Of a stretch of 64,000 nucleotides of DNA, positions 17,869-30,477 are shown piece after piece. Source of the stretch: an uncultured Nitrospira sp. (GTDB taxonomy: Bacteria; Nitrospirota; Nitrospiria; Nitrospirales; Nitrospiraceae); assembly GCA_902500825.1 (NCBI GenBank), contig CABVRX010000002.1, forward strand, positions 1 through 64,000, read 5' to 3'. The translations under genes and the position numbers were made by a program. The notes under the pieces are model-generated. The model did no database searches, was not told the DNA's origin, and saw only the letters and a program-made list of their open reading frames with translations. Within the stretch, counting starts at the first letter, position 1. Each line of letters starts with the position of its first letter.

Positions 17869-18303
17869 TTGGCCAATCGACTATGGCATGGTTGTGTTGT
17901 GTGCGCACTGCTCCTAAGTCTTACTGCCTGTTCGGGACCACAGCCGATCTTACGGTCGAATAAACAGCTCCACTTGTCTGGCAAGCAGTTGGCTCAACAG
18001 GAGATTGAATCCTGTCAGAAGCAAGTTGAAAAGACAGGATTGCGGCATGGGGCCAATCAAAGCACAAACGCTGCAACCGGTGCGGTGCTCGGTCTAACGC
18101 TTGGCGGCGCGGTCGGCGCGTCGGCGGGAGTAGTCGGGGGATTGCCAGGAGTGGCGATCGGAGCCGCCGTCGGTAGCGGGCTTGGGTTGGTTGTTGGAGC
18201 ACTTGGCGGAACATTCAAGCCGCTGGAACCGGAACTGCCCTATGCCGATGCCGTCACGAGCTGTCTAAAGGAAAAGGGCTATGAGGTCAGAGGTTGGGAA
18301 TAG
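17869..18303 (+). CDS. Glycine-zipper lipoprotein, copy 2
   Basis: A 144-residue paralogue of the gene at 17002. Signal and lipobox: VCALLLSLTACSG. A Gly-rich zipper (GAVLGLTLGGAVGASAGVVG onward) follows a polar region with QQEIESCQKQVEK, and the C-terminus is CLKEKGYEVRGWE. Both copies share the order lipobox, LxLxGK-Q-EIE-C, zipper and EKGYEV-GW. Translation starts at TTG 17869, with AGGAG seven bases upstream and no ATG nearby. The duplication left about 420 bp of repeat-containing DNA between the copies. Confidence 0.75.
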   Translation: MANRLWHGCVVCALLLSLTACSGPQPILRSNKQLHLSGKQLAQQEIESCQKQVEKTGLRHGANQSTNAATGAVLGLTLGGAVGASAGVVGGLPGVAIGAAVGSGLGLVVGALGGTFKPLEPELPYADAVTSCLKEKGYEVRGWE

Positions 18304-18431
18304 CGTCGATGGGTGATAGATATGGAAAAGCCTACACCGTCACTACCCTACCGGCACAATCGATAGTTTTCTAGACGAGTCTCTGCCGGTTCTGTTCCGT
18401 ATCTACTTCTCTCCGTGGGATTTCTCCCTGG

Positions 18432-18474
18432 TTGACAATTCACGTAGGAAACTTATAAAACTATATAAGTTTCC
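18432..18474 (+). promoter_or_regulatory. TetR-gene promoter with overlapping palindromic operator
   Basis: TTGACA at 18432-18437 and TATAAA at 18454-18459 are spaced 16 bases. A perfect inverted repeat, GGAAACTTATA (18447-18457) and TATAAGTTTCC (18464-18474) with a six-base spacer, covers the -10 box. It lies 18 bases before the TetR start, so autorepression by the TetR product is the natural reading. Confidence 0.7.
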
Positions 18475-18492
18475 ATGGTACTCATGTGAGTC

Positions 18493-19113
18493 ATGCCCAT
18501 GAAGATGCCAATAGACAAGACCCTCTCTAATCGTCCCTCGGCCAACAGGGTTATCAGCGCGGCCAGGAAACAGTTCTTCGCCCACGGATTCAGAACGGTC
18601 CGCATGGATGATATCGCCGCTGAACTTGGGATGAGCAAGAAAACCTTGTATGCGCATTTCCCCAGCAAGACGGCGCTCGTCCAAACAATCATGCAGGAGA
18701 AGTTCTCGGAAGTCGAAGCGGACCTCTCTCGTTTAGAATCCACTGATGAGCAGAACGTCGAGACGGCGCTCCGTAACATGCTGGATTGCGTGCAGCGACA
18801 CACAGCTGAAATCCAACCACCATTTGTGAGGGACATCGGCCGCGAGCTTCCTGAGCTGTTTCAGGTTATCGAACAGCGCCGACGAGACTTGATCCGCCGG
18901 CATTTCGGCGAACTATTCAAAAAAGGGCAGAGGACTGGGCTCATCAGAAACGATATTCCAGTTCATCTCATCATTGAGATCCTGCTTGGGGCCGTCCAGA
19001 CGATCATGAATCCTCCCAAGTTGGCGGAACTCGGTTTGACGGTGGAAGCCGGATACTCGTCGATCATTAGAATTGTCCTTGAAGGGGCGCTACACAATCA
19101 GCGCAATCGGTGA
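18493..19113 (+). CDS. TetR/AcrR-family transcriptional regulator
   Basis: A 206-residue TetR regulator. The N-terminal helix-turn-helix is clear at about residues 20-60 (AARKQFFAHGFRTVRMDDIA, then AELGMSKKTLYAHFPSK). The rest is a helical ligand-binding domain. It is the first gene of an operon with a membrane-fusion protein, ABC ATPase and permease, and its own promoter is covered by a palindrome, so it probably represses the exporter until a ligand binds. Starts at 18493 and 18499 are both possible; no strong ribosome-binding site is visible. Confidence 0.85.
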   Translation: MPMKMPIDKTLSNRPSANRVISAARKQFFAHGFRTVRMDDIAAELGMSKKTLYAHFPSKTALVQTIMQEKFSEVEADLSRLESTDEQNVETALRNMLDCVQRHTAEIQPPFVRDIGRELPELFQVIEQRRRDLIRRHFGELFKKGQRTGLIRNDIPVHLIIEILLGAVQTIMNPPKLAELGLTVEAGYSSIIRIVLEGALHNQRNR

Positions 19114-19117
19114 ACCG

Positions 19118-20107
19118 ATGAGTAGAGGTTGTACAGAAACCACACGGTGGCTGATGCCGGCATGTTTTCTGGTGATGATCTTGGTCCAGTCGGGCTGCGA
19201 ACAACCTCCGTCAAATCAAGTCCAGGGCTACGTGGAAGGAGAGTACGTCTATGTGGCCGCGCCCTATGCCGGCGCTCTTGCATCCTTGTCGGTACGGCGT
19301 GGGAAACAGGTCAGTGAGGGTGATCCCCTCTTCGCACTGGACCAGGTCTCGGAGAAAGCCGCCCGCGACGAAGCGGAGAAGAAACTCGGTCAGGCACTGG
19401 CCAACTTCGAGGATGCCAAGAAGGGGAAACGTCCCTCTGAGATCGAATCACTCAAGGCGCAACTGAAATACGCGCAGGCAGCGCTGCGTCTTTCAATGCA
19501 AGACGTCGCGCGACAGGAAGGGCTTCAGTCTATGCCCGGTGCCGCAGTGGAAATGGAAATTGATCGCGCTCGTGCGACGCGGGACCAGAATCAACAGCGA
19601 GTGGCGCAACTGAAAGCTGATCTGCACACGGCGTTGTTAGGGGCTCGTGCGGATCAAGTTGCGGCAGCCGACGCAGAGGTTCGTGCAAGGGAAGCGGCGT
19701 TGGCCAAAGCAGAATGGGCTCTCGCGCAGAAACGACAAGCGGCGCCGAAGGCAGGGCTTGTCTTCGACACCCTATACCGTGAAGGAGAATGGGTCGAGGC
19801 CGGACGCCCCGTGATTGTCTTGTTGCCGCCCGATCACATCAAAGTGCGCACGTTTGTATCTGAGACAAAGGTTGGCAGCATCAAAGTCGGTGATGTAGTT
19901 CAGATTACGGTGGATGGCGTGCAGGGCGCGATTCAGGGGAAAGTGAGCTACATTTCACCGCGGGCGGAATATACCCCACCGATCATCTACAGCCAGGAGA
20001 ACCGTAAGAAGCTGGTCTTCTTGGTTGAAGCGCTCTTCGATCAGGATGCTGCACGCAATCTGCATCCCGGTCAGCCGGTGGATGTGCGGTTCAACGGTGC
20101 TTCATGA
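19118..20107 (+). CDS. HlyD-type membrane-fusion (periplasmic adaptor) lipoprotein
   Basis: A 329-residue adaptor of the YbhG/HlyD_D23 kind. The signal ends in a lipobox (ILVQSGC). A split lipoyl-like domain starts with VYVAAPYAGALASLSVRRGK, followed by a long alpha-hairpin rich in Ala/Glu/Lys (EKKLGQALANFEDAKKGKRP onward) and a beta-barrel region (VRTFVSETKVGSIKVGD). It connects the inner-membrane ABC transporter to the outer membrane. Start is ATG 19118, four bases after the TetR stop. The stop overlaps the ATPase ATG by four bases. Confidence 0.85.
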   Translation: MSRGCTETTRWLMPACFLVMILVQSGCEQPPSNQVQGYVEGEYVYVAAPYAGALASLSVRRGKQVSEGDPLFALDQVSEKAARDEAEKKLGQALANFEDAKKGKRPSEIESLKAQLKYAQAALRLSMQDVARQEGLQSMPGAAVEMEIDRARATRDQNQQRVAQLKADLHTALLGARADQVAAADAEVRAREAALAKAEWALAQKRQAAPKAGLVFDTLYREGEWVEAGRPVIVLLPPDHIKVRTFVSETKVGSIKVGDVVQITVDGVQGAIQGKVSYISPRAEYTPPIIYSQENRKKLVFLVEALFDQDAARNLHPGQPVDVRFNGAS

Positions 20108-21045
20108 CTGCTGATAACACCGGACAAGAATTGGCCATTGACGTACACGGCATGACGAAACGGTTTGGGTCACGGACCGTGGTCGACCACATCGGGCTGC
20201 AGATACGTCGTGGCGAGATTTACGGCTTTCTCGGGCCGAATGGCAGCGGCAAGACCACGTTTATCCGCATGCTGTGTGGTCTCTTGCGCCCGGATGAAGG
20301 CAGCGGTACTTGTCTTGGCTACGACGTCATCACCGAAAGCGAAGCCATCAAAGCTGCGGTAGGCTATATGACCCAGCGATTTAGCTTCTATGAAGACCTG
20401 AGCATCGCCGAAAATCTCGATTTCGTCGCCCGGATGTTTGGGGTCGATCATCGTCGCCAGGCCGTTGAGCAGAGCCTTGAACGGTTGGGCCTGGCCGGTC
20501 GACGAGAGCAGTTGGCTGGTCAGTTATCGGGAGGATGGAAGCAGCGACTTGCTTTAGCAGCCTGTCTGATCCATCGACCACAGTTATTGCTCTTGGATGA
20601 GCCGACGGCCGGTGTCGATCCGAAAGCGCGCAGAGAATTTTGGGAACAGATTCATGGATTGGCCGCCGAAGGCCTTACCTTCTTGATCACCACCCACTAT
20701 ATGGATGAAGCCGAGCGCTGCCATCGCCTTGCCTATATCGCCTATGGGAAGTTACTCACCTATGGAACTGTCGCCGATGTCATCACCCAGGCGCAGCTCA
20801 CCACCTGGTCCGTCAGTGGACCGGATCTCCAGCAATTGGCGGAAGTCTTGCGTCGGCAACCCGGCGTGCAACAAGCCGTCGCGTTTGGCGACCGGTTGCA
20901 TGTGAGCGGAGGCGATTCTGTCGCACTCGAAACAACGGTTTCGGCGTTTCGCACTGCACCGTATGAATGGCAGCGCGTGCACACGAGTCTCGAAGACGTG
21001 TTCATCCATCTCATGTATCGATCCTCAAATGAGGTTACAGCATGA
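20104..21045 (+). CDS. ABC transporter ATP-binding protein
   Basis: A 313-residue nucleotide-binding subunit. Walker A GPNGSGKTT is at residues 44-52, Q-loop YMTQRFSFYEDL, signature LSGGWKQR, Walker B LLLLDEPTAGVD and H-loop ITTHYMDEAERC. It is of the ABC-2 (drug/lipid export) type. Unlike E. coli YbhF, which has two ATPase domains, this has one. ATGA overlaps on both sides couple it to the adaptor and permease. Confidence 0.9.
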   Translation: MTADNTGQELAIDVHGMTKRFGSRTVVDHIGLQIRRGEIYGFLGPNGSGKTTFIRMLCGLLRPDEGSGTCLGYDVITESEAIKAAVGYMTQRFSFYEDLSIAENLDFVARMFGVDHRRQAVEQSLERLGLAGRREQLAGQLSGGWKQRLALAACLIHRPQLLLLDEPTAGVDPKARREFWEQIHGLAAEGLTFLITTHYMDEAERCHRLAYIAYGKLLTYGTVADVITQAQLTTWSVSGPDLQQLAEVLRRQPGVQQAVAFGDRLHVSGGDSVALETTVSAFRTAPYEWQRVHTSLEDVFIHLMYRSSNEVTA

Positions 21046-22184
21046 GCCTGCGATGGACATTCTCTCCCTCCCGCTTCTGGGCCATCGTCGTCAAGGAGTT
21101 CATTCAGATGCGCCGGGACCGGGTGACGTTCGGGATGATGATCGGCATTCCGTTGATCCAACTCATTCTCTTCGGCTTTGCCATCAATGCGGACCCGAAG
21201 CACTTGCCGACGGTGGTTCTTCTCGCCGATTACGGTCCTCACGGACGAACCGTCCTCCAGGCGATACGGAACAGCGACTACTTCGAATTCACCCGGCAGG
21301 TGACGAGCGAGCGAGAGGCAGAGGAAGTGCTTGCGCGGGGCGACGTGCAATTCGTGATCAACATTCCGTACAACTTTTCACGTGACGTCGTCCGTGGTGA
21401 CCGACCTGCCATCCTTGTCGAGGCAGATGCAACAGATCCGGCGGCAACCAGCAATGCTATCGGCTCTCTGCGGGTGTTGGCGGCGACGGCGCTCCGTCAC
21501 GATCTCACCGGGCCTCTGGCTTTTCTCTCCCGAGACGATGATCCCATCGAACTGCGAATTCACGCGCGATACAACCCTGAGGCCATCACACAATACAACA
21601 TCGTGCCTGGCTTGATGGGGGTGGTGCTCACGATGACGATGGTGATGATCACAGGCTTGGCGATTACACGCGAGCGCGAACGCGGCACCATGGAAAATTT
21701 GCTCTCGATGCCGACGCGGCCCGTCGAGGTCATGATCGGCAAGGTGCTGCCCTATATTCTTGTGGGGTACGTCCAAGTGGTGCTCATTCTCCTGGCGTCG
21801 CATCTGCTTTTTAAGGTGCCTGTGTACGGCAACGTCGCAATGCTGTTTCTCGCCGCATTGGTCTTCATTACAGCTAACCTGGCGATGGGAATCACTTTTT
21901 CTACCATGGCACAGAACCAGTTGCAGGCCGTGCAACTGTCATTCTTTTTCTTTCTGCCGTCGCTCTTGCTTTCGGGGTTCATGTTCCCGTTCCGCGGTAT
22001 GCCTCAGTGGGCGCAAACGATCGGTGAGGTGCTGCCGCTTACTCACTTTCTTAGAATCGTGCGCGGCATCATGCTCAAAGGAAATGGGCTGGAAGAGATT
22101 GTGCTTCAGTTGTGGCAGATCGCTCTCTTTGCTATCGTCGCCCTGGCAATCGGCGTGAAACGATACCGCCAGACTTTGGACTAG
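21042..22184 (+). CDS. ABC-2 type transporter permease
   Basis: A 380-residue membrane subunit of the YhhJ/YbhS/YbhR kind. An N-terminal helix (MMIGIPLIQLILFGFAINAD) is followed by a large periplasmic domain and five C-terminal helices including IVPGLMGVVLTMTMVMITGL and FFFFLPSLLLSGFMFPFRG, ending at a conserved cytoplasmic VKRYRQTLD. Such systems often have two permeases; here the second is absent and the DNA turns into a lower-GC methyltransferase gene 55 bases later. One permease could homodimerise. Confidence 0.9.
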   Translation: MSLRWTFSPSRFWAIVVKEFIQMRRDRVTFGMMIGIPLIQLILFGFAINADPKHLPTVVLLADYGPHGRTVLQAIRNSDYFEFTRQVTSEREAEEVLARGDVQFVINIPYNFSRDVVRGDRPAILVEADATDPAATSNAIGSLRVLAATALRHDLTGPLAFLSRDDDPIELRIHARYNPEAITQYNIVPGLMGVVLTMTMVMITGLAITRERERGTMENLLSMPTRPVEVMIGKVLPYILVGYVQVVLILLASHLLFKVPVYGNVAMLFLAALVFITANLAMGITFSTMAQNQLQAVQLSFFFFLPSLLLSGFMFPFRGMPQWAQTIGEVLPLTHFLRIVRGIMLKGNGLEEIVLQLWQIALFAIVALAIGVKRYRQTLD

Positions 22185-22209
22185 GGACCATGGAACGATT
22201 CTGTTGATA

Positions 22210-22227
22210 AAGACGTCTAGACGTCTT
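22210..22227. promoter_or_regulatory. Perfect 18-bp palindrome ahead of the methyltransferase gene
   Basis: AAGACGTCTAGACGTCTT is fully self-complementary and contains GACGTC twice. It ends 12 bases before the ATG at 22240, so it would lie in the 5' leader and could be an operator or a self-methylated control site. Confidence 0.5.
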
Positions 22228-22239
22228 ATTCTCCGCCGC

Positions 22240-23406
22240 ATGCACAAACTAACCCTACAACAGAAGCGGCGTCCTGGAGAGGTTCGGGACGCCATTTTGT
22301 CGGTTCTCTCAGCAATGCCAGGTGGCGCGTCCCTCCAAATGATTGAGCAGCATGTTGCTGGTCTCATAGGAGATGGAGCGCGATCAAGCGTCCGGTCTTA
22401 TCTAAGGTTAAATACGCCATCGGTCTTTGTGCGAACTGCGAGGGGGCAGTATGGATTGAAGATTGCCTCGCAATCACGAGCAGATAGGATTGCTGAGAGT
22501 TGTCCTGAGTACCATCGGAGATTTTCCTTTGGAAACGCCGAGATTTTCGAGGCTGACTGCCTAAATTGGTTACGCCAATGGCCGCCCAATACAATTCATG
22601 GCGTTGTCACTGATCCGCCATATGGGTTATTTGAATATACTGCGGAACAGCAGAAAAAGTTGAGGAATGGTAAGGGCGGTGTTTGGCGTATACCTCCCTC
22701 TTTCGATGGAGTTCAACGGTCGCCTCTTCCTAGATTCACTATTCTTTCGCCTCAGGACCTACGTGCTCTAGAGCTTTTCTTTTTTGAGTGGGCGCAGGCA
22801 CTCATCCCAGCATTGGTTCCCGGTGCTAACGTTATTGTCGCTACGAATCCCTTGCTCTCGTATTTGGTGTCAGGTGCTTTGGTGAAGGCCGGTCTCGAAA
22901 GACGCGGAGAACTCGTACGTCTTGTCATGACGATGAGAGGAGGGGATAGGCCCAAAGCGGCACATGAAGAATTTCCTGATGTCAGTGTCATGCCACGTTC
23001 CATGTGGGAGCCGTGGCTGATATTTCGCAAACCATTAGAGGGAAGAGTGCAGGATAATCTGAGAAAGTGGGGAGCTGGGGGATTTAGGAGGCCATCTCCG
23101 GATAAGCCTTTCGGTGACGTTATTGTATCCTCGCCGACGCACAAATCAGAAAGGCAACTTGCACCTCATCCAAGCCTGAAACCTCAGCAATTTTTACGGA
23201 CGTTGGTAAGGGGAGTTCTTCCGCTTGGGCGTGGGATCGTGCTTGATCCATTCTGTGGAACTGGCTCGACTCTTGCTGCTGCTGAAGCAGTGGGATATTC
23301 GAGTATCGGGATCGAAAAAGATCTACACTATTTTGAGATTGCGAAAGAAGCTCTGCCGCGACTGGCGCAACATAAAAATGGCAACCTTTACTCAGTGACC
23401 ATATAG
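22240..23406 (+). CDS. Amino-DNA methyltransferase of a restriction-modification pair (beta class)
   Basis: A 388-residue methyltransferase that modifies adenine N6 or cytosine N4 in DNA. Motif IV, DPPY, is at about residues 125-128. The SAM-binding motif DPFCGTGSTLAAAEAVGYSS comes near the C-terminus; the order IV then I marks the beta group. The first 80 residues look like a winged-helix domain (VRDAILSVLSAMPGGASLQM, then SSVRSYLRLN). ATG 22240 is chosen so the palindrome stays outside the gene; TTG 22204 would put it inside. The A/T-rich codon use differs from its neighbours, a sign of transfer. It converges on a broken nuclease gene, overlapping its end by 19 bases. Confidence 0.85.
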   Translation: MHKLTLQQKRRPGEVRDAILSVLSAMPGGASLQMIEQHVAGLIGDGARSSVRSYLRLNTPSVFVRTARGQYGLKIASQSRADRIAESCPEYHRRFSFGNAEIFEADCLNWLRQWPPNTIHGVVTDPPYGLFEYTAEQQKKLRNGKGGVWRIPPSFDGVQRSPLPRFTILSPQDLRALELFFFEWAQALIPALVPGANVIVATNPLLSYLVSGALVKAGLERRGELVRLVMTMRGGDRPKAAHEEFPDVSVMPRSMWEPWLIFRKPLEGRVQDNLRKWGAGGFRRPSPDKPFGDVIVSSPTHKSERQLAPHPSLKPQQFLRTLVRGVLPLGRGIVLDPFCGTGSTLAAAEAVGYSSIGIEKDLHYFEIAKEALPRLAQHKNGNLYSVTI

Positions 23407-23995
23407 ATCCAGTTCTTTCGAAGTTTTTCTATGCCGGATTTATGAAGTGTCGCAGTGCGAGTTCCTAATTCACCTCTTGCGTTCTTGCGAAAATCATCCA
23501 GTGTCACCTTTCCAAGATAAACCTCGCTGAAAGTCATTGGTGCCCGGTCCTTTGCCGGTTCAGTCAAGCAGTCAACTTCGTACACAAAGACGTACATCCA
23601 TTGGTTGCGAGCTCCATGGGTATCTACCGCGCCGCCTGACTTCCTTGTGGTTTTTATTTCTACCCCTTGTTCTCCGGCTTTGACTCTATTGCCGGATAGA
23701 CTCCGTTGACGATTAAATCAGGATGGCCATTGTGGTAGCAATTTACCGTCAGGCTCCGCGAGTGTTTTGATAAGCTCGCAGTCAGCATGTCTGAGAGAAG
23801 GCCAGACATGATGGCGGGGCGCAATATGTCATCCAGCCGGAGGAGTCCACGCCGGATGATCCCCTTGTTGATATCGTAAAAGAAATCGTAAATATCCTGC
23901 ATTGCCATCTCGAAATCCTTTAATCGCAGGGCATATGGCAGGGTTGCATCGGAGTTGAAACGATCTTGTCTAACGGTATTCCGAGTCACCGGCAT
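23388..23995 (-). pseudogene. Type II restriction endonuclease, PD-(D/E)XK-like, frameshifted
   Basis: Two frames together give one protein of about 202 residues. The first (23995 down to about 23675) begins MPVTRNTVRQDRF and contains CYHNGHPDLIVNGVYP. It then hits a stop, while the next frame continues in register with GEQGVEIKTTRKSGG, then TRTATLHKSGIEKLRKNWIY, to the end. The pair HPD ... 19 residues ... EIK is the catalytic signature of PD-(D/E)XK nucleases. One extra base near 23675-23683 would restore the reading frame. Convergent overlap with the methyltransferase gene supports a restriction-modification pair. It is either inactive by mutation or the victim of a sequence error. Confidence 0.7.
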
Positions 23996-24385
23996 GTCAA
24001 ACTCTCATATGTGTTACCTGAGCCGGCGAGAGTCTAGATAGCGGCTCGATGCAAGTCAACCGGAGTGAACATCCGTCAGAGAGCCAATTCTGAAACTCTA
24101 GCGCATTATTCACGAACGCTTCTGCAGTAATCGCGGATTCGCCGCCACCACAAGCCAGGACGCGATCCAGGAGCGTCCAGGCAGACGCACTCGTCGCTCG
24201 GTCGCCGGGCTAATTTTACGTAGGATTTATGGTGAAGATTTCTTCACGATCTCATCATGGATCATTCATATTCGAACGATATACTTCTTACAGATCAAAG
24301 GAGATGAAGGCCAATGACGACGATGTTCTTAGCGCGCTCACCGACCGTTGGTTTTGGAGTGTTGGATAGAAAGAGGAGATTCGCC
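23996..24385. other. Gene-free stretch upstream of the Slp-like lipoprotein
   Basis: 390 bases, lower in GC than the neighbourhood, without a convincing gene. An ATG at 24314 with AAAGGAG upstream opens a frame that runs into the lipoprotein gene and would add 24 residues; I consider that a less likely start. A short palindrome at 24232-24247 is listed separately. Confidence 0.4.
24232..24247. promoter_or_regulatory. Short palindrome upstream of the Slp-like gene
   Basis: GTGAAGA-TT-TCTTCAC is a perfect inverted repeat about 70 bases before the first possible start. The related word ATGAAGA is repeated in the AT-rich stretch at 27.7 kb. It is a candidate operator. Confidence 0.35.
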
Positions 24386-24994
24386 ATGCGTATGATCGGA
24401 CTGTTTGCGATGTGTGTCCTGTTGGGAGCCTGCACAACCGCACCGATATTTTCTCCCGAGATCATGAAAAACGTCGAAACGAATACGTTTGATGTCGAGG
24501 CCTGGCGGAAGCAGTCCTATCAGCCGTCGAGCGGCAATTTTGTCCCGCACAAAGTGGAATTGGGAGGAGAAATCGTAGAGGTTATTCGAAAACCGGAAGT
24601 CATCGTCCTTCTTGTCGAGAAGCAGCCCATCAAGAATTATGCGGCAGATGGTTCGAAGAGCGCCAAGCGAGGAGACTCATTCTGGTACGCCATTACCTTT
24701 AACGGCGCTCCCGAGCCCAGCATGTTGCGGAGAGGCAACAAACTCGTCGTGGTCGGAATGACTGCGAGACCAGGCACGGAAATAATCGGTGGAGCTCCGA
24801 GAGTGCTGCCGCACCTGACGGCGCAGTGTCTTCACATTTGGAATACCCGAGAATCTGAAATGGCGGACTTTTCTTATTATGGAGGCGCCATGGGACATCA
24901 CCCTCAGGAAGAAGAAACATTTTGCCTGGGAGACGACAATGAGGGATCTTTTCCAGTCGCTCTAGCTCAGGTGGCACGCATGTTCGCTCTGTAG
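24386..24994 (+). CDS. Slp-family outer-membrane lipoprotein
   Basis: A 202-residue lipoprotein. The signal MRMIGLFAMCVLLGACTT has a clear lipobox (LLGAC). The mature part resembles the Slp family (starvation/stationary-phase outer-membrane lipoproteins): FSPEIMKNVETNTFD, a VELGGEIVEVIRKPEVIVLL strand segment, and GNKLVVVGMTARPGTEIIGG. Start at 24386 is preferred because AGAGGAGA lies six bases upstream and it gives a normal signal peptide. It stands alone, convergent with the barrel gene at 25110. Homologues associate with envelope stress, but function is not established. Confidence 0.75.
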   Translation: MRMIGLFAMCVLLGACTTAPIFSPEIMKNVETNTFDVEAWRKQSYQPSSGNFVPHKVELGGEIVEVIRKPEVIVLLVEKQPIKNYAADGSKSAKRGDSFWYAITFNGAPEPSMLRRGNKLVVVGMTARPGTEIIGGAPRVLPHLTAQCLHIWNTRESEMADFSYYGGAMGHHPQEEETFCLGDDNEGSFPVALAQVARMFAL

Positions 24995-25109
24995 TGTGGC
25001 AACCCAGTCCGACACAGTTGTGCTTGGCTTGTGTTGAATGGCGGCCGGTTTGCCGTACGGTTTTGATGTGTTCAGTATGGGGAGTTGGTTGCGATGAACG
25101 TTACGCCGA

Positions 25110-26369
25110 TCAGAAAATATACACAACATCGAGCGAGAGGGTCGGCTGGTAGCTTGTCGCTCGTCCGCCGACCTGGAAGACATTATGGTCGGACTTGTCA
25201 TAGCGGTATTCGAGCCGTGTCTTCACCGACGGAAACGGTCTGTACTCAAGCGTGGCGGTAGCTTCCCACAGGGTCTGCGCGACGGCCGGCGCAGCTTCTG
25301 TTGATGTGGCGCCGAAGCACACATTGGCCTTTGGTTGATAGGCCGTTGTTCCCTGACAGGTGATCAAACCTCCCCTGTCTTCGAAAATCTCTCCTCGTAA
25401 ACGGACGCCCCATTCTTTCGTGAAGTCATGAAACAAATAGCCTGCCACTCCGCCCCAGCGCGCATCTTTCCCAGGGCTGACCAGGCTGCTGTTGGCTTGA
25501 TTCGCGTAGTACGCCTCAACGACCGTCCATGTCTGCGCGCCGAGTTGCCAACTCGCGTATCCGCCACCCAGCAGAAGCGTCCCTCCCGGCGTGCCGGGCG
25601 CAATCTCCCTTGGCCCGGCCAACCCATAGAGCATGACTCTCACCGTGTCAGACGGAAAGAGCATCAGCAGCGTCTCCACCAATGGCTCGTGATGTGTATT
25701 CGCTTGAACCGCGTTGATAAACGTGATCGCCCTGACCGACAACGATACCTGTTTATTGAACTCGTATGTAGCGGAGATGCCGCCCGTCGTGAAGGGTTGT
25801 CCGAAATACAAGTAGGACCGTGAGTAATTTGGGCTGTACGGATTCCCCACCTGTTCATAGCCGACCAGGGCGTTGAACTGGCCGACTGCCAGGTCAAGCC
25901 CATGACCGATGGGAGCGACATAATTGACATAGAATTCCTGGAAGTCCGCGAATGGATTCAGATTCAGTCCGCCGATGAAATCTGAATCTTGCCCCGCGTT
26001 GAATTTCACGCGAAAGCCGAATCGATCGAGAGCGGAACCACCGGTTTTCGCTTGTCGCTCTATCGCAGCCTGGATCACGTTTGCCCGAAACTGATTGGAG
26101 TTGACGTCGAAAATGCGGAGTTCATTGATGTCGTTGGACGGGCGGTTGAAGTTCTGCATATACGAGACTTGGGAATAGCCATTGAACCGTAGTCTCACAA
26201 CTTCCGACAGCAGCCGCCGCACGGTCATCTTCTCCGCTACTCTGGGAATAGGCTCGAACTGATAAGCAAAAGGACTTGGTTTTTTGTCTTCGGCCCGTGC
26301 GTCTGTCAGGAGAACGCATCCAAAGGTGAGAATCACACCAACGAAGGCTAGGCCCGCGCGACTGAGCAT
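25110..26369 (-). CDS. OmpL-like beta-barrel porin (BBP2 type), copy 1
   Basis: A 419-residue outer-membrane protein. The signal MLSRAGLAFVGVILTFGCVL is followed by cleavage near DARA. Barrel features include GYSQVSYMQNFNRPSNDINE at the start, LRIFDVNSNQF, repeated alternating strands and a terminal LSLDVVYIF with C-terminal Phe. It strongly resembles the gene at 44508-45791 (shared RWGGVAGYL-HDF-KEWG-R-R-EIF, CQGTTAYQP-ANVCFGATST). These fit the putative OmpL-like porin family. The start is the second ATG (26369) with AGGA eight bases upstream. Probably a porin; substrate unknown. Confidence 0.75.
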   Translation of the reverse strand: MLSRAGLAFVGVILTFGCVLLTDARAEDKKPSPFAYQFEPIPRVAEKMTVRRLLSEVVRLRFNGYSQVSYMQNFNRPSNDINELRIFDVNSNQFRANVIQAAIERQAKTGGSALDRFGFRVKFNAGQDSDFIGGLNLNPFADFQEFYVNYVAPIGHGLDLAVGQFNALVGYEQVGNPYSPNYSRSYLYFGQPFTTGGISATYEFNKQVSLSVRAITFINAVQANTHHEPLVETLLMLFPSDTVRVMLYGLAGPREIAPGTPGGTLLLGGGYASWQLGAQTWTVVEAYYANQANSSLVSPGKDARWGGVAGYLFHDFTKEWGVRLRGEIFEDRGGLITCQGTTAYQPKANVCFGATSTEAAPAVAQTLWEATATLEYRPFPSVKTRLEYRYDKSDHNVFQVGGRATSYQPTLSLDVVYIF

Positions 26370-26691
26370 GTGATGGTTCCTGAATTCATGCAGCACAATG
26401 CTCTTCTGCCTCTTGCTCCGGAGGCCGCGCCGAAGAAGCCCACTGCAGCGCGATTCGTAGGAAGCTCGCGCTCTTTACATCAGTGGTCGTCTGACAGAAC
26501 TGCCGGAGTACTCCAAACCAAATTTGAATGAATAAAAGAGAGAGTTCAGCAGGCCGCATGGCAGATCAAGCAGGCAGCCGCCATGCTCCGCCACTGCTAC
26601 GCCGCCTATCACAAAAGAAGAGCCGGAGAATCGCCCCTTCTCGAATGTGACCCGGCCGCGTGCCTTTGGTAGAGCTGATATTGAGCCGATA
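26370..26691. other. Intergenic stretch, nothing recognised
   Basis: 322 bases between the barrel gene start and the end of the next minus-strand gene. A minus-strand frame running through it overlaps the neighbouring gene's 3' end and looks like chance. I see no clear promoter or stem-loop. Confidence 0.3.
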
Positions 26692-27624
26692 TCACTGCGA
26701 CGAGACAAAATTCTGGCTCCTGGCTCTTTGCAGTGCGATCTGGCTGGTTATGGAGGTTATGGGCGGCAACTTGTCGGTTGTAATTCCTTGTTTACTGGCG
26801 AGCCGAATGTCGCACCCTTTGAAGTGTGGACCATCAATGAAGCCTCTCAAACCCTTCCCCTGCGAATCTCGCGCAATGTCGAATCGGAACGGAACAAGCT
26901 CGGCTTTGGCTGCGACGACCTTTGCCGCATATTCCTCTGCCTTCGCTTTTCGCCGGAGAGTCTCCCGTGTCTCAAGTTCCTCCAGCGCCTTCCTGTTCCG
27001 TTCTGCCTGCTCTACATTTTCTATGCCCCAAGGTCCACGTGGGCCGTACGTCACCTCATTCGAGGCAAGTTCTATATCCACCCCTGCATTGTCACGTAGG
27101 CGGTATTCTTCTTCCATTTCCTCTTTCGTTGGAATAACGGGCCTTGGGGTGGCCTCCATACTAAGAATTCCTTCATGATAGTTGAAGGTTCCCTTTAATC
27201 CAGTCTCGATTATTCGCGGTTGTGACTGTGTTGAGTGATCCACGGCTCTGAACGTTCCGATGACATCAGCCGGCTCAACATACTTACTGAAAGGAGCTTC
27301 GTGATTGGCGGTGGCAAGTTCGACTTCAATGAGAACTCGTTCATGACAGGCGCTGCCTGCCCAGGAACCTTGGAGGAGTGCCTGCCCATACATTTGCGGA
27401 ATGATCTCGCCTATCTTAATAGATGTTTGAGTCGCAAGAGCTTCTTGCTCCTTCACCGTGATCTCAGCTAAAGTCTTTTCGAGTTGTTCCTGTGCCGCTA
27501 TACGTTCGTGCCTCTCCAGCTCAAGCAGGACTGTCCGGTGCAATCCGCAGGCATCAAGAGCTAATGTGCATCCAGTCAACACGAGCAAACAGCACAAGCG
27601 GATACAGTAGATCTTACGTAGCGG
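26692..27624 (-). CDS. Hypothetical lipoprotein or secreted protein
   Basis: A 310-residue protein, start chosen at MPLRKIYCIRLCCLLVLTGC. The N-terminus is a signal with lipobox (VLTGC). A helical Glu/Ala-rich stretch (QEQLEKTLAEITVKEQEALA) is followed by a beta-rich central domain (GTFNYHEGILSMEATPRPVI), a second charged helical region (AERNRKALEELETRETLRRK) and a C-terminal segment FIDGPHFKGCDIRLASKQG. Codon use is richer in A/T than the surrounding genes. I do not recognise a family. No good ribosome-binding site precedes either start. Confidence 0.6.
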   Translation of the reverse strand, partial: PLRKIYCIRLCCLLVLTGCTLALDACGLHRTVLLELERHERIAAQEQLEKTLAEITVKEQEALATQTSIKIGEIIPQMYGQALLQGSWAGSACHERVLIEVELATANHEAPFSKYVEPADVIGTFRAVDHSTQSQPRIIETGLKGTFNYHEGILSMEATPRPVIPTKEEMEEEYRLRDNAGVDIELASNEVTYGPRGPWGIENVEQAERNRKALEELETRETLRRKAKAEEYAAKVVAAKAELVPFRFDIARDSQGKGLRGFIDGPHFKGCDIRLASKQGITTDKLPPITSITSQIALQRARSQNFVSSQ

Positions 27625-28125
27625 CATGATGGTTGTGATCACCTCATCATTCCTGGATTGAGCGTGCGAACGAAATAGGACACCTTAAATTATGAATAAA
27701 TCATCATGAAGAGATCGTAATGAAAAAAGTATAACGATGAAATCATGAAGAAATCATGAAGAAGCAATGAAGAGTTTTTCATATCATAGAGATCGAACCA
27801 AATCTGAAGCACCTCTTTCCAAAGATGCCAATAGCCAGCATAGACGCCGACTATTCGGCACCGTGCCGTTAATTCGACACTGACGTACGCCTTCCTTTTT
27901 CTCTAATCAGTGATGCCATCCAACGAATTTTAATTAGATGCAGCGTAGTTACAGCAGGATCGCGGCCTCCAAGCTGAAGATGCCCGGCTGGAATACAAGT
28001 TGCCAAGGTGAGATCCATGGTCGCGGGGTGTTCACGACCTGTTGTGAGGTGATTTACAATCAAAGACTGTGGCAGCATCGTGCAGTGGTGCTTACTGACA
28101 GTCAGCACGAAAAGGAGGACTCATC
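27625..28125. other. AT-rich intergenic stretch with ATGAAGA repeats
   Basis: About 500 bases. At 27741-27762 the 11-mer AATCATGAAGA occurs twice in tandem, followed by a degenerate third (27763-27773), and another ATGAAGAG is at 27706. The remainder leads to the ribosome-binding site AAGGAGG before the gene at 28126. No gene is seen. Confidence 0.45.
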
Positions 28126-29674: not shown

Positions 29675-30109
29675 ATGTCCGTCCAAGTATATGGCTGCAA
29701 CCACGTAGTCATTGAAGTCACCGATGCGAAGAAAGCGGTGAAGTTTTACCAGGACGTGTTTGGATTGAAGCTGCTGCGCGGCGGGGAAGGAGCCGCCTGG
29801 TGCAAGCTCGGCGAGCATCAGTTCATGGCGATTTTTGTAGTCGAGCAATTGCAGCCGGATCGTACGAAACACTTTGGACTCATGGTCCGTGATGCGAAGC
29901 AGATTCAGGAAGTCCGTAAGAAACTGACGAAGAAGTACAAGTTGAAGCTTCATCCTGACTTCCGTTGCGACTTTCGAGATCCGTGGGGCAATCGGATTCA
30001 AGTCGGCGACCTCAGCGATGAATCGTTGGTGTGGCTGCTGCCGTACCAAGAAGTGCAAAAATCGGGAATTGTATTTACCTCCAAACAAAACAAGAAGGGA
30101 GTTCGATGA
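29675..30109 (+). CDS. VOC (glyoxalase/bleomycin-resistance) family protein
   Basis: A 144-residue single-domain vicinal-oxygen-chelate protein. HVVIEVTDAKKAVKFYQDVF and KHFGLMVRD contribute the two halves, and DFRDPWGNRIQVGDL is the usual C-terminal block. Metal ligands would be His10, a central His/Glu and Gln near the end. The substrate is unknown; glyoxalase, fosfomycin and dioxygenase types share this fold. It is four bases after the DsbA-family gene, and its stop overlaps the next start. Confidence 0.8.
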   Translation: MSVQVYGCNHVVIEVTDAKKAVKFYQDVFGLKLLRGGEGAAWCKLGEHQFMAIFVVEQLQPDRTKHFGLMVRDAKQIQEVRKKLTKKYKLKLHPDFRCDFRDPWGNRIQVGDLSDESLVWLLPYQEVQKSGIVFTSKQNKKGVR

Positions 30110-30477
30110 TGAGCGATCAGAATTTGCAACAACGACTGAACGACCTGTTCGGTTATATTCGCCAGGGCAAGATCATCGAGGCGATGAACGAGTTCTACGA
30201 CAAGGACACGGTCATGCAAGACAACGCGAATCCACCGACGAAGGGGTTAGCCGCCAACATCGAGCGAGAAAAGCAATTCCTGAGCGGGGTGAAGGAATGG
30301 AAGGGTTTTGACGTCAAAGCCAGCGGCACGGGTGACAATGTCACGTTCTACGAAGGCACGTTGGATTTCATCGCCACCAACGGACAGCCGGTTCATCTGG
30401 AGCAAGTCTCAGTCGCGAAGTGGAAGAACGGGAAGATCGTCCACGAGCGGTTCTATTATGATACGGGAAAGAAGTGA
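30106..30477 (+). CDS. SnoaL-like / NTF2-fold protein
   Basis: A 123-residue cone-shaped alpha/beta-barrel protein of the SnoaL-like group. EAMNEFYDKDTVMQDNANPP is the signature helix-strand, and VAKWKNGKIVHERFYYD is the typical C-terminal strand pair. Members are isomerases, hydrolases or non-enzymatic. The start ATGATG at 30106/30109 overlaps the stop of the VOC gene and has GAAGGGAG upstream. Confidence 0.8.
   Translation: MMSDQNLQQRLNDLFGYIRQGKIIEAMNEFYDKDTVMQDNANPPTKGLAANIEREKQFLSGVKEWKGFDVKASGTGDNVTFYEGTLDFIATNGQPVHLEQVSVAKWKNGKIVHERFYYDTGKK

Follow-up and report, generated by a model that had tools for sequence, protein, structure and literature searches.

Results

The window, the whole stretch of DNA that was analyzed, comprises 64,000 nucleotides from an uncultured Nitrospira sp. 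(contig CABVRX010000002.1, positions 1 to 64,000). At 22203..24062 (no strand assigned), it carries a restriction-modification (R-M) cassette composed of the promoter of a DNA methyltransferase gene (M), M itself, a convergent restriction endonuclease gene (R) and the promoter of R; the right edge varies between 24062 and 24099 depending on the relative, and the limits were set by blastn homology edges and empty sites. M (22240..23406, plus strand), recognized by its ORF, its Pfam and PADLOC matches and alignment, is an intact gene for a beta-class DNA methyltransferase of 388 aa. Its single ORF extends to 23406 and has in-frame starts at TTG 22204 (400 aa) or ATG 22240 (388 aa), and the protein matches N6_N4_Mtase of Pfam (2.7e-16) and the type II MTase of PADLOC (4.5e-111). 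Both the catalytic motif DPPY (22612..22623, plus strand; residues 125-128 of 388, columns 125-128 being invariant) and the AdoMet motif DPFCGTGST (23245..23271, plus strand; residues 336-344, columns largely invariant) contain invariant columns among 54 relatives, and M is assigned to the beta class because DPPY (motif IV) precedes DPFCGTGST (motif I, FxGxG-like). The DPPY motif suggests that the product is m6A rather than m4C. A DNA alignment with three close relatives revealed no internal indel in M, and we infer that M is catalytically active. In pairs including R-less copies, the dN/dS of M was 0.06-0.10; M appears to be under purifying selection in these pairs, although the pairwise values also cover the time before R was lost.

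Within the first codons of M, at 22268-22293, the sequence contains a terminator-like hairpin of 11 bp that is followed by a T-rich tail. In two relatives, M occupies two frames adjoining an intact R (L064:2711-3849 and L067:5016-6184); these split genes are probably assembly errors, because M loss beside an intact R should be lethal.

R (23388..23995, minus strand; about 202 codons), delineated by alignment and fold, encodes a PD-(D/E)XK restriction endonuclease in a broken frame. It consists of two minus-strand frames, one at 23995-23660 and the other reaching up to 23693-23388, which were read for searches as one protein with an X at the junction. The active-site HPD codons (23717..23725, minus strand; residues 91-93) lie before the break, and the EIK codons (23652..23660, minus strand; residues 113-115) lie after it in the other frame. 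HPD, E113 and K115 do not vary among the 50 intact R proteins that were aligned, in agreement with the sequence-only reading of this locus, which had recognized an HPD followed by an EIK with 19 residues between D and E.

The pieces of R matched no family in Pfam or NCBIfam, and an R profile gave only chance-level matches to PDB sequences. An AlphaFold2 model was made of an intact relative that is 96% identical to the R of the window (pLDDT 89.9). The top Foldseek matches of this model were the restriction endonucleases NaeI, BglI, EcoRV and SfiI (best E 0.012), and VIA-align gave Z scores of 9.1 for NaeI, 6.2 for SwaI, 5.9 for EcoRV, 5.8 for SfiI, 5.5 for BglI and 5.0 for HincII. With the invariant HPD and E-x-K residues and a restriction-enzyme fold in the prediction, the placement of R among PD-(D/E)XK restriction enzymes of the EcoRV/NaeI structural branch is well supported by the model. 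The likeness to this branch lies in the predicted fold and the PD-(D/E)XK residues; identity is about 13%, with no sequence relation found, and R is shorter than NaeI and lacks its second domain. The earlier proposal that the restored protein is a nuclease is thus upheld by fold, yet R falls outside the sequence families of Pfam and the PDB. A sigma70-like R promoter (TTGACT, 17-bp spacer, TAGACT) was found by promoter scan at 24031..24059 on the minus strand, and its sequence is kept in the nearest relatives.

The frame of R is broken at 23693..23694 (minus strand), where a DNA alignment with three relatives places one base fewer than in intact copies, so that the nuclease is indeed split in the assembly by a single missing base, as had been read from the letters. 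The break, at about 23694, falls in a G run that has three residues in the three nearest intact copies and two in the window. Because it falls between HPD and EIK, each piece is left with an incomplete active site. The dN/dS of R to its nearest copy (0.037) is similar to intact-intact values, and neither a second lesion nor relaxed selection was found in the R of the window; because R is otherwise undecayed, the lesion would be recent at most, or an assembly artefact. ORFs of relatives cover about 27 kb of the window, and within this portion no second frame break is backed by three relatives, a result that speaks against an assembly riddled with indels throughout. Programmed frameshifting was ruled out, since the relatives encode R in one frame. 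Elsewhere in the window, a gene at 29946-30474 is read in two frames here and in one frame in L131 and L132, with no such break against the closest relative.

Disruption of R is not peculiar to this genome. Among 55 loci with an intact M and enough flanking sequence, R is intact in 44 and frameshifted, truncated or gone in 11, and the M tree requires 11 changes of R-status label, at least nine of them forced by supported branches. Within Nitrospira, the breaks in R lie at differing positions (G000, G004, L014, L016 and N. moscoviensis). Comparison of these loci indicates that R loss beside an intact M recurs among relatives and that the broken R of the window is in itself ordinary.

The segment from 22203 to about 24062 is confirmed as a compact, mobile Type II R-M cassette of 1.9-kb in a variable spot of the Nitrospira chromosome. 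A motif-bearing methyltransferase adjoins a nuclease gene as its convergent neighbor, as expected of a Type II system; an intact nuclease gene is lacking from this assembly, in which the frame is interrupted near 23694, and is present in relatives. M and R genes converge on each other at about 50 other loci, far above chance, and in public genomes a relative of R follows directly behind M on the opposite strand for most M relatives. These homologous pairs, together with the coordinates and the motif order, substantiate the initial description of a beta-class methyltransferase converging on two nuclease frames. The ORF list of the cassette contains no separate small controller ORF ahead of R of the kind found in C-protein-controlled R-M systems. 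A distant relative on an Acidiphilium plasmid (L144:2453-4323; M 51%, R 33%) has a small, C-protein-like HTH gene ahead of R, and has neither the winged helix nor the twin site described below.

The GC content of the cassette (49.9%) is below that of the window (56.5%) and of the left (56.3%) and right (54.4%) flanks. The earlier remark that the segment is lower in GC than its surroundings holds to this extent, but such a low value is not unique, since the 27-28 kb region of the window is lower still (47.2%). The variable spot spans 18303-28110 of the window and contains three blocks that are present, absent or reordered among sister genomes: an HlyD/ABC exporter (18.4-22.2 kb), the R-M cassette and a lipoprotein/porin block (24.2-27.8 kb).

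Homology ends at 22203 on the left in six genomes and at 24062-24099 on the right in several of the closest relatives, and these edges coincide with the outer edges of both scanned promoters. Empty sites, in which the surrounding genes occur without the cassette, were found in G033, G056, G031, G053, G064 and G057. The R-M pair is present in 8 of 79 congeneric genomes, five of which have a full-length R (77-96% identity), and it extends over several phyla, to plasmids of Klebsiella, Rhizobium and Gordonia and to viral contigs; the M family reaches a haloarchaeal virus. This distribution shows the pair to be horizontally mobile, and its horizontal acquisition, suspected from the sequence alone, is borne out by the occurrence of homologous pairs in different phyla, on plasmids and in viral contigs and by the empty sites in sister genomes. 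A phage or plasmid source of the copy in the window was sought and rejected, there being no close match in either and the plasmid relatives of M being at most about 67% identical; a viral scan with an R fragment as query gave no match. A complete pair is carried by a small, mobilizable ColRNAI plasmid of Klebsiella (L139, 4938-bp), in which R is annotated as a hypothetical protein, and akin small plasmids were found in Citrobacter and Raoultella.

M is preceded by a sigma70-like promoter (22204..22232, plus strand; TTGATA, 17-bp spacer, TATTCT), identified by promoter scan and by its conserved architecture. Its spacer is filled by a twin site, GACGTC-TA-GACGTC (22212..22225, no strand assigned), which locus comparison marks as a probable operator, the whole region 22204-22232 reading TTGATA-AA-GACGTC-TA-GACGTC-T-TATTCT. 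The twin site was found in 67 of 68 scanned loci and in three further viral loci, across many phyla and with all 12 positions fixed, whereas the central dinucleotide takes 10 different values. Around it, -35/-10-like hexamers have a mean best score of 9.07 of 12 over 67 loci, versus 6.29 in flank shuffles. The sequence GACGTCNNGACGTC has a single occurrence in the 3.79-Mb genome, at the M promoter. All eight carriers in the genus have the twin site at the M promoter, and elsewhere in 77 genomes its frequency is near that expected by chance according to our own arithmetic. Upstream of R, GACGTC was present in only 1 of 39 regions.

The N terminus of M is predicted to form a winged-helix domain of about 75 residues (22249..22479, plus strand; AlphaFold2 pLDDT 82). 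Among its structural matches are linker histones, Rok and repressors of the Fur type, as well as structures of the RNA polymerase delta subunit, which were matched by Foldseek and which belong to HARE-HTH. Pfam HARE-HTH (PF05066), with which the domain has the winged-helix fold in common, scored weakly (5 of 54 members, best E 0.019, no match above the curated cut-off), and a winged-helix profile gave chance-level matches only to PDB sequences. Every relative that bears the winged helix (about 70 loci) has the twin site, and none of the eight relatives without the domain has it (L058, L143, L144 and the viral L149-L153). R is present despite the missing domain in L150, L151, L153 and the distant L144, L150 and L153 apparently being two copies of one locus. 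In the M tree, most domain-less relatives fall outside the main clade and L058 falls inside it; on this tree, the association between winged helix and twin site counts as two or three independent contrasts rather than eight. In three actinobacterial plasmids (L140, L141 and L142), the winged helix has a reading frame of its own, which lies downstream of the twin site and just ahead of M.

Discussion

We infer that these comparisons are best explained if the winged helix, bound to the twin site, acts as a repressor of the gene that encodes it, M. The N-terminal domain of M would occupy both GACGTC palindromes between the -35 and -10 elements of the sigma70 promoter of M and block RNA polymerase, so that the level of M is probably set by negative feedback, while R would be expressed from its own promoter, which has no GACGTC sites. 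The intact M would methylate a short palindrome, probably at N6-adenine; the missing base would make a full-length R product impossible, and the cell would most likely modify without restricting. Taken as a whole, we consider it likely that the locus is a mobile cassette with an intact M and a broken R, in which M is autorepressed through the winged helix and the twin site.

Precedents exist for such a mode of control. The N-terminal domain of M.SsoII represses its own gene at its own operator (PMC6100179), and SsoII/Ecl18kI-type R-M systems likewise combine a Type II methyltransferase bearing an N-terminal DNA-binding domain of similar size with an inverted-repeat site within the promoter region of its gene and no separate controller gene. 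The cassette of the window resembles these systems in the predicted fusion of a DNA-binding domain to M and departs from them in other respects: M.SsoII is a C5-cytosine enzyme whereas M is of the beta class, the SsoII genes are divergent whereas M and R converge, and the SsoII operator is a 15-bp site downstream of the transcription start, in contrast to two GACGTC palindromes inside the promoter spacer. Repeated 6-bp palindromes serve as operators in an R-M promoter in the case of RptR (PMC12255303), a repressor of Type I R-M islands with which its site is conserved, as it is here. RptR is, however, a stand-alone protein that tolerates variants of its site TAGCTA, whereas the domain here is fused to M and no variant of its site was seen.

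Whether GACGTC is also the sequence modified by M and cut by R seems to us evenly balanced. AatII and ZraI are GACGTC restriction enzymes, with which the target would be in common only if GACGTC is the cognate site. If M and R were such isoschizomers, the promoter might be controlled at their own target, by methylation of GACGTC or by binding of the catalytic domain there, and the winged helix would play no part. Each half of the twin site is a 6-bp palindrome with an adenine, the 12 positions show no deviation in 67 loci, and CfrBI and LlaDII, as cited in PMC3874152, are precedents in which short palindromic cognate sites lie in the M promoter. In Halobacterium NMX12-1, moreover, GACGTC carries m4C or m6A assigned to ABSL23_01420 (PMC11556058), and the M family extends to haloarchaeal viruses; GACGTC is absent from the main text of Fullmer et al. 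2019 (PMC6471742). We nevertheless regard control without the winged helix as improbable, because the R-M pairs L150, L151 and L153, whose enzymes are 60-68% identical, have no winged helix and no twin site; the twin site of this family tracks the domain, not the presence of R, in which it differs from the CfrBI and LlaDII cases as cited there, and its strict 2-bp spacing suggests a composite operator. The same domain-less pairs weaken any reading of the twin site as a recognition site only. GACGTC is also not depleted in carrier genomes, a point that counts against GACGTC as the target but is uninformative on specificity because M protects its sites. A combination of both functions, in which the winged helix reads the methylation state of the twin GACGTC while M methylates and R cuts the same sequence, strikes us as rather unlikely.

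With regard to the frame break, an assembly or sequencing error would leave an intact, active Type II R-M system, and the short homopolymer, the single lesion, the absence of relaxed selection on R and the intact R of five congeneric genomes are all compatible with it. We hold such an error to be unlikely, as no other frame break in the about 27 kb compared has the support of three relatives and as independent breaks of R are common among relatives of the pair. The low local indel background favors a real mutation, and the frameshift is probably present in the cell. A further reading is that M persists as an orphan methyltransferase that serves the host in epigenetic regulation. Intact M genes beside a lost R in a fifth of the loci (11/55) with their recurrent, tree-supported changes of status (at least nine forced), the low dN/dS of M in pairs including R-less copies and the preservation of the M promoter element in R-less loci would fit such a role, yet R seems to have been lost recently and at scattered points, M has a patchy distribution in the genus (8/79), the dN/dS covers time preceding R loss, and the twin site occurs elsewhere at about chance level only, so that no other target promoter is apparent. 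We therefore find this role very improbable.

A broken R-M pair is ordinary; the main addition is the cross-phylum twin site linked to a winged-helix methyltransferase. For an R-M cassette to become established in many phyla, M has to come before R whenever a new host is entered. The twin site, with 12 of 12 positions unchanged across about 70 loci, lies exactly between the -35 and -10 elements and is linked to one domain of M, which makes it a compact candidate solution to this timing problem. The twin site also offers a candidate recognition sequence for the endonuclease family of R, a family that lies outside Pfam and the PDB and that annotated plasmid records list as a hypothetical protein. 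If the winged helix does read the methylation of its own site, then the promoter would be a methylation thermostat, open while unmethylated in a new host and shut once the genome is protected, contained in one 1.9-kb cassette and working across phyla with no separate controller gene.
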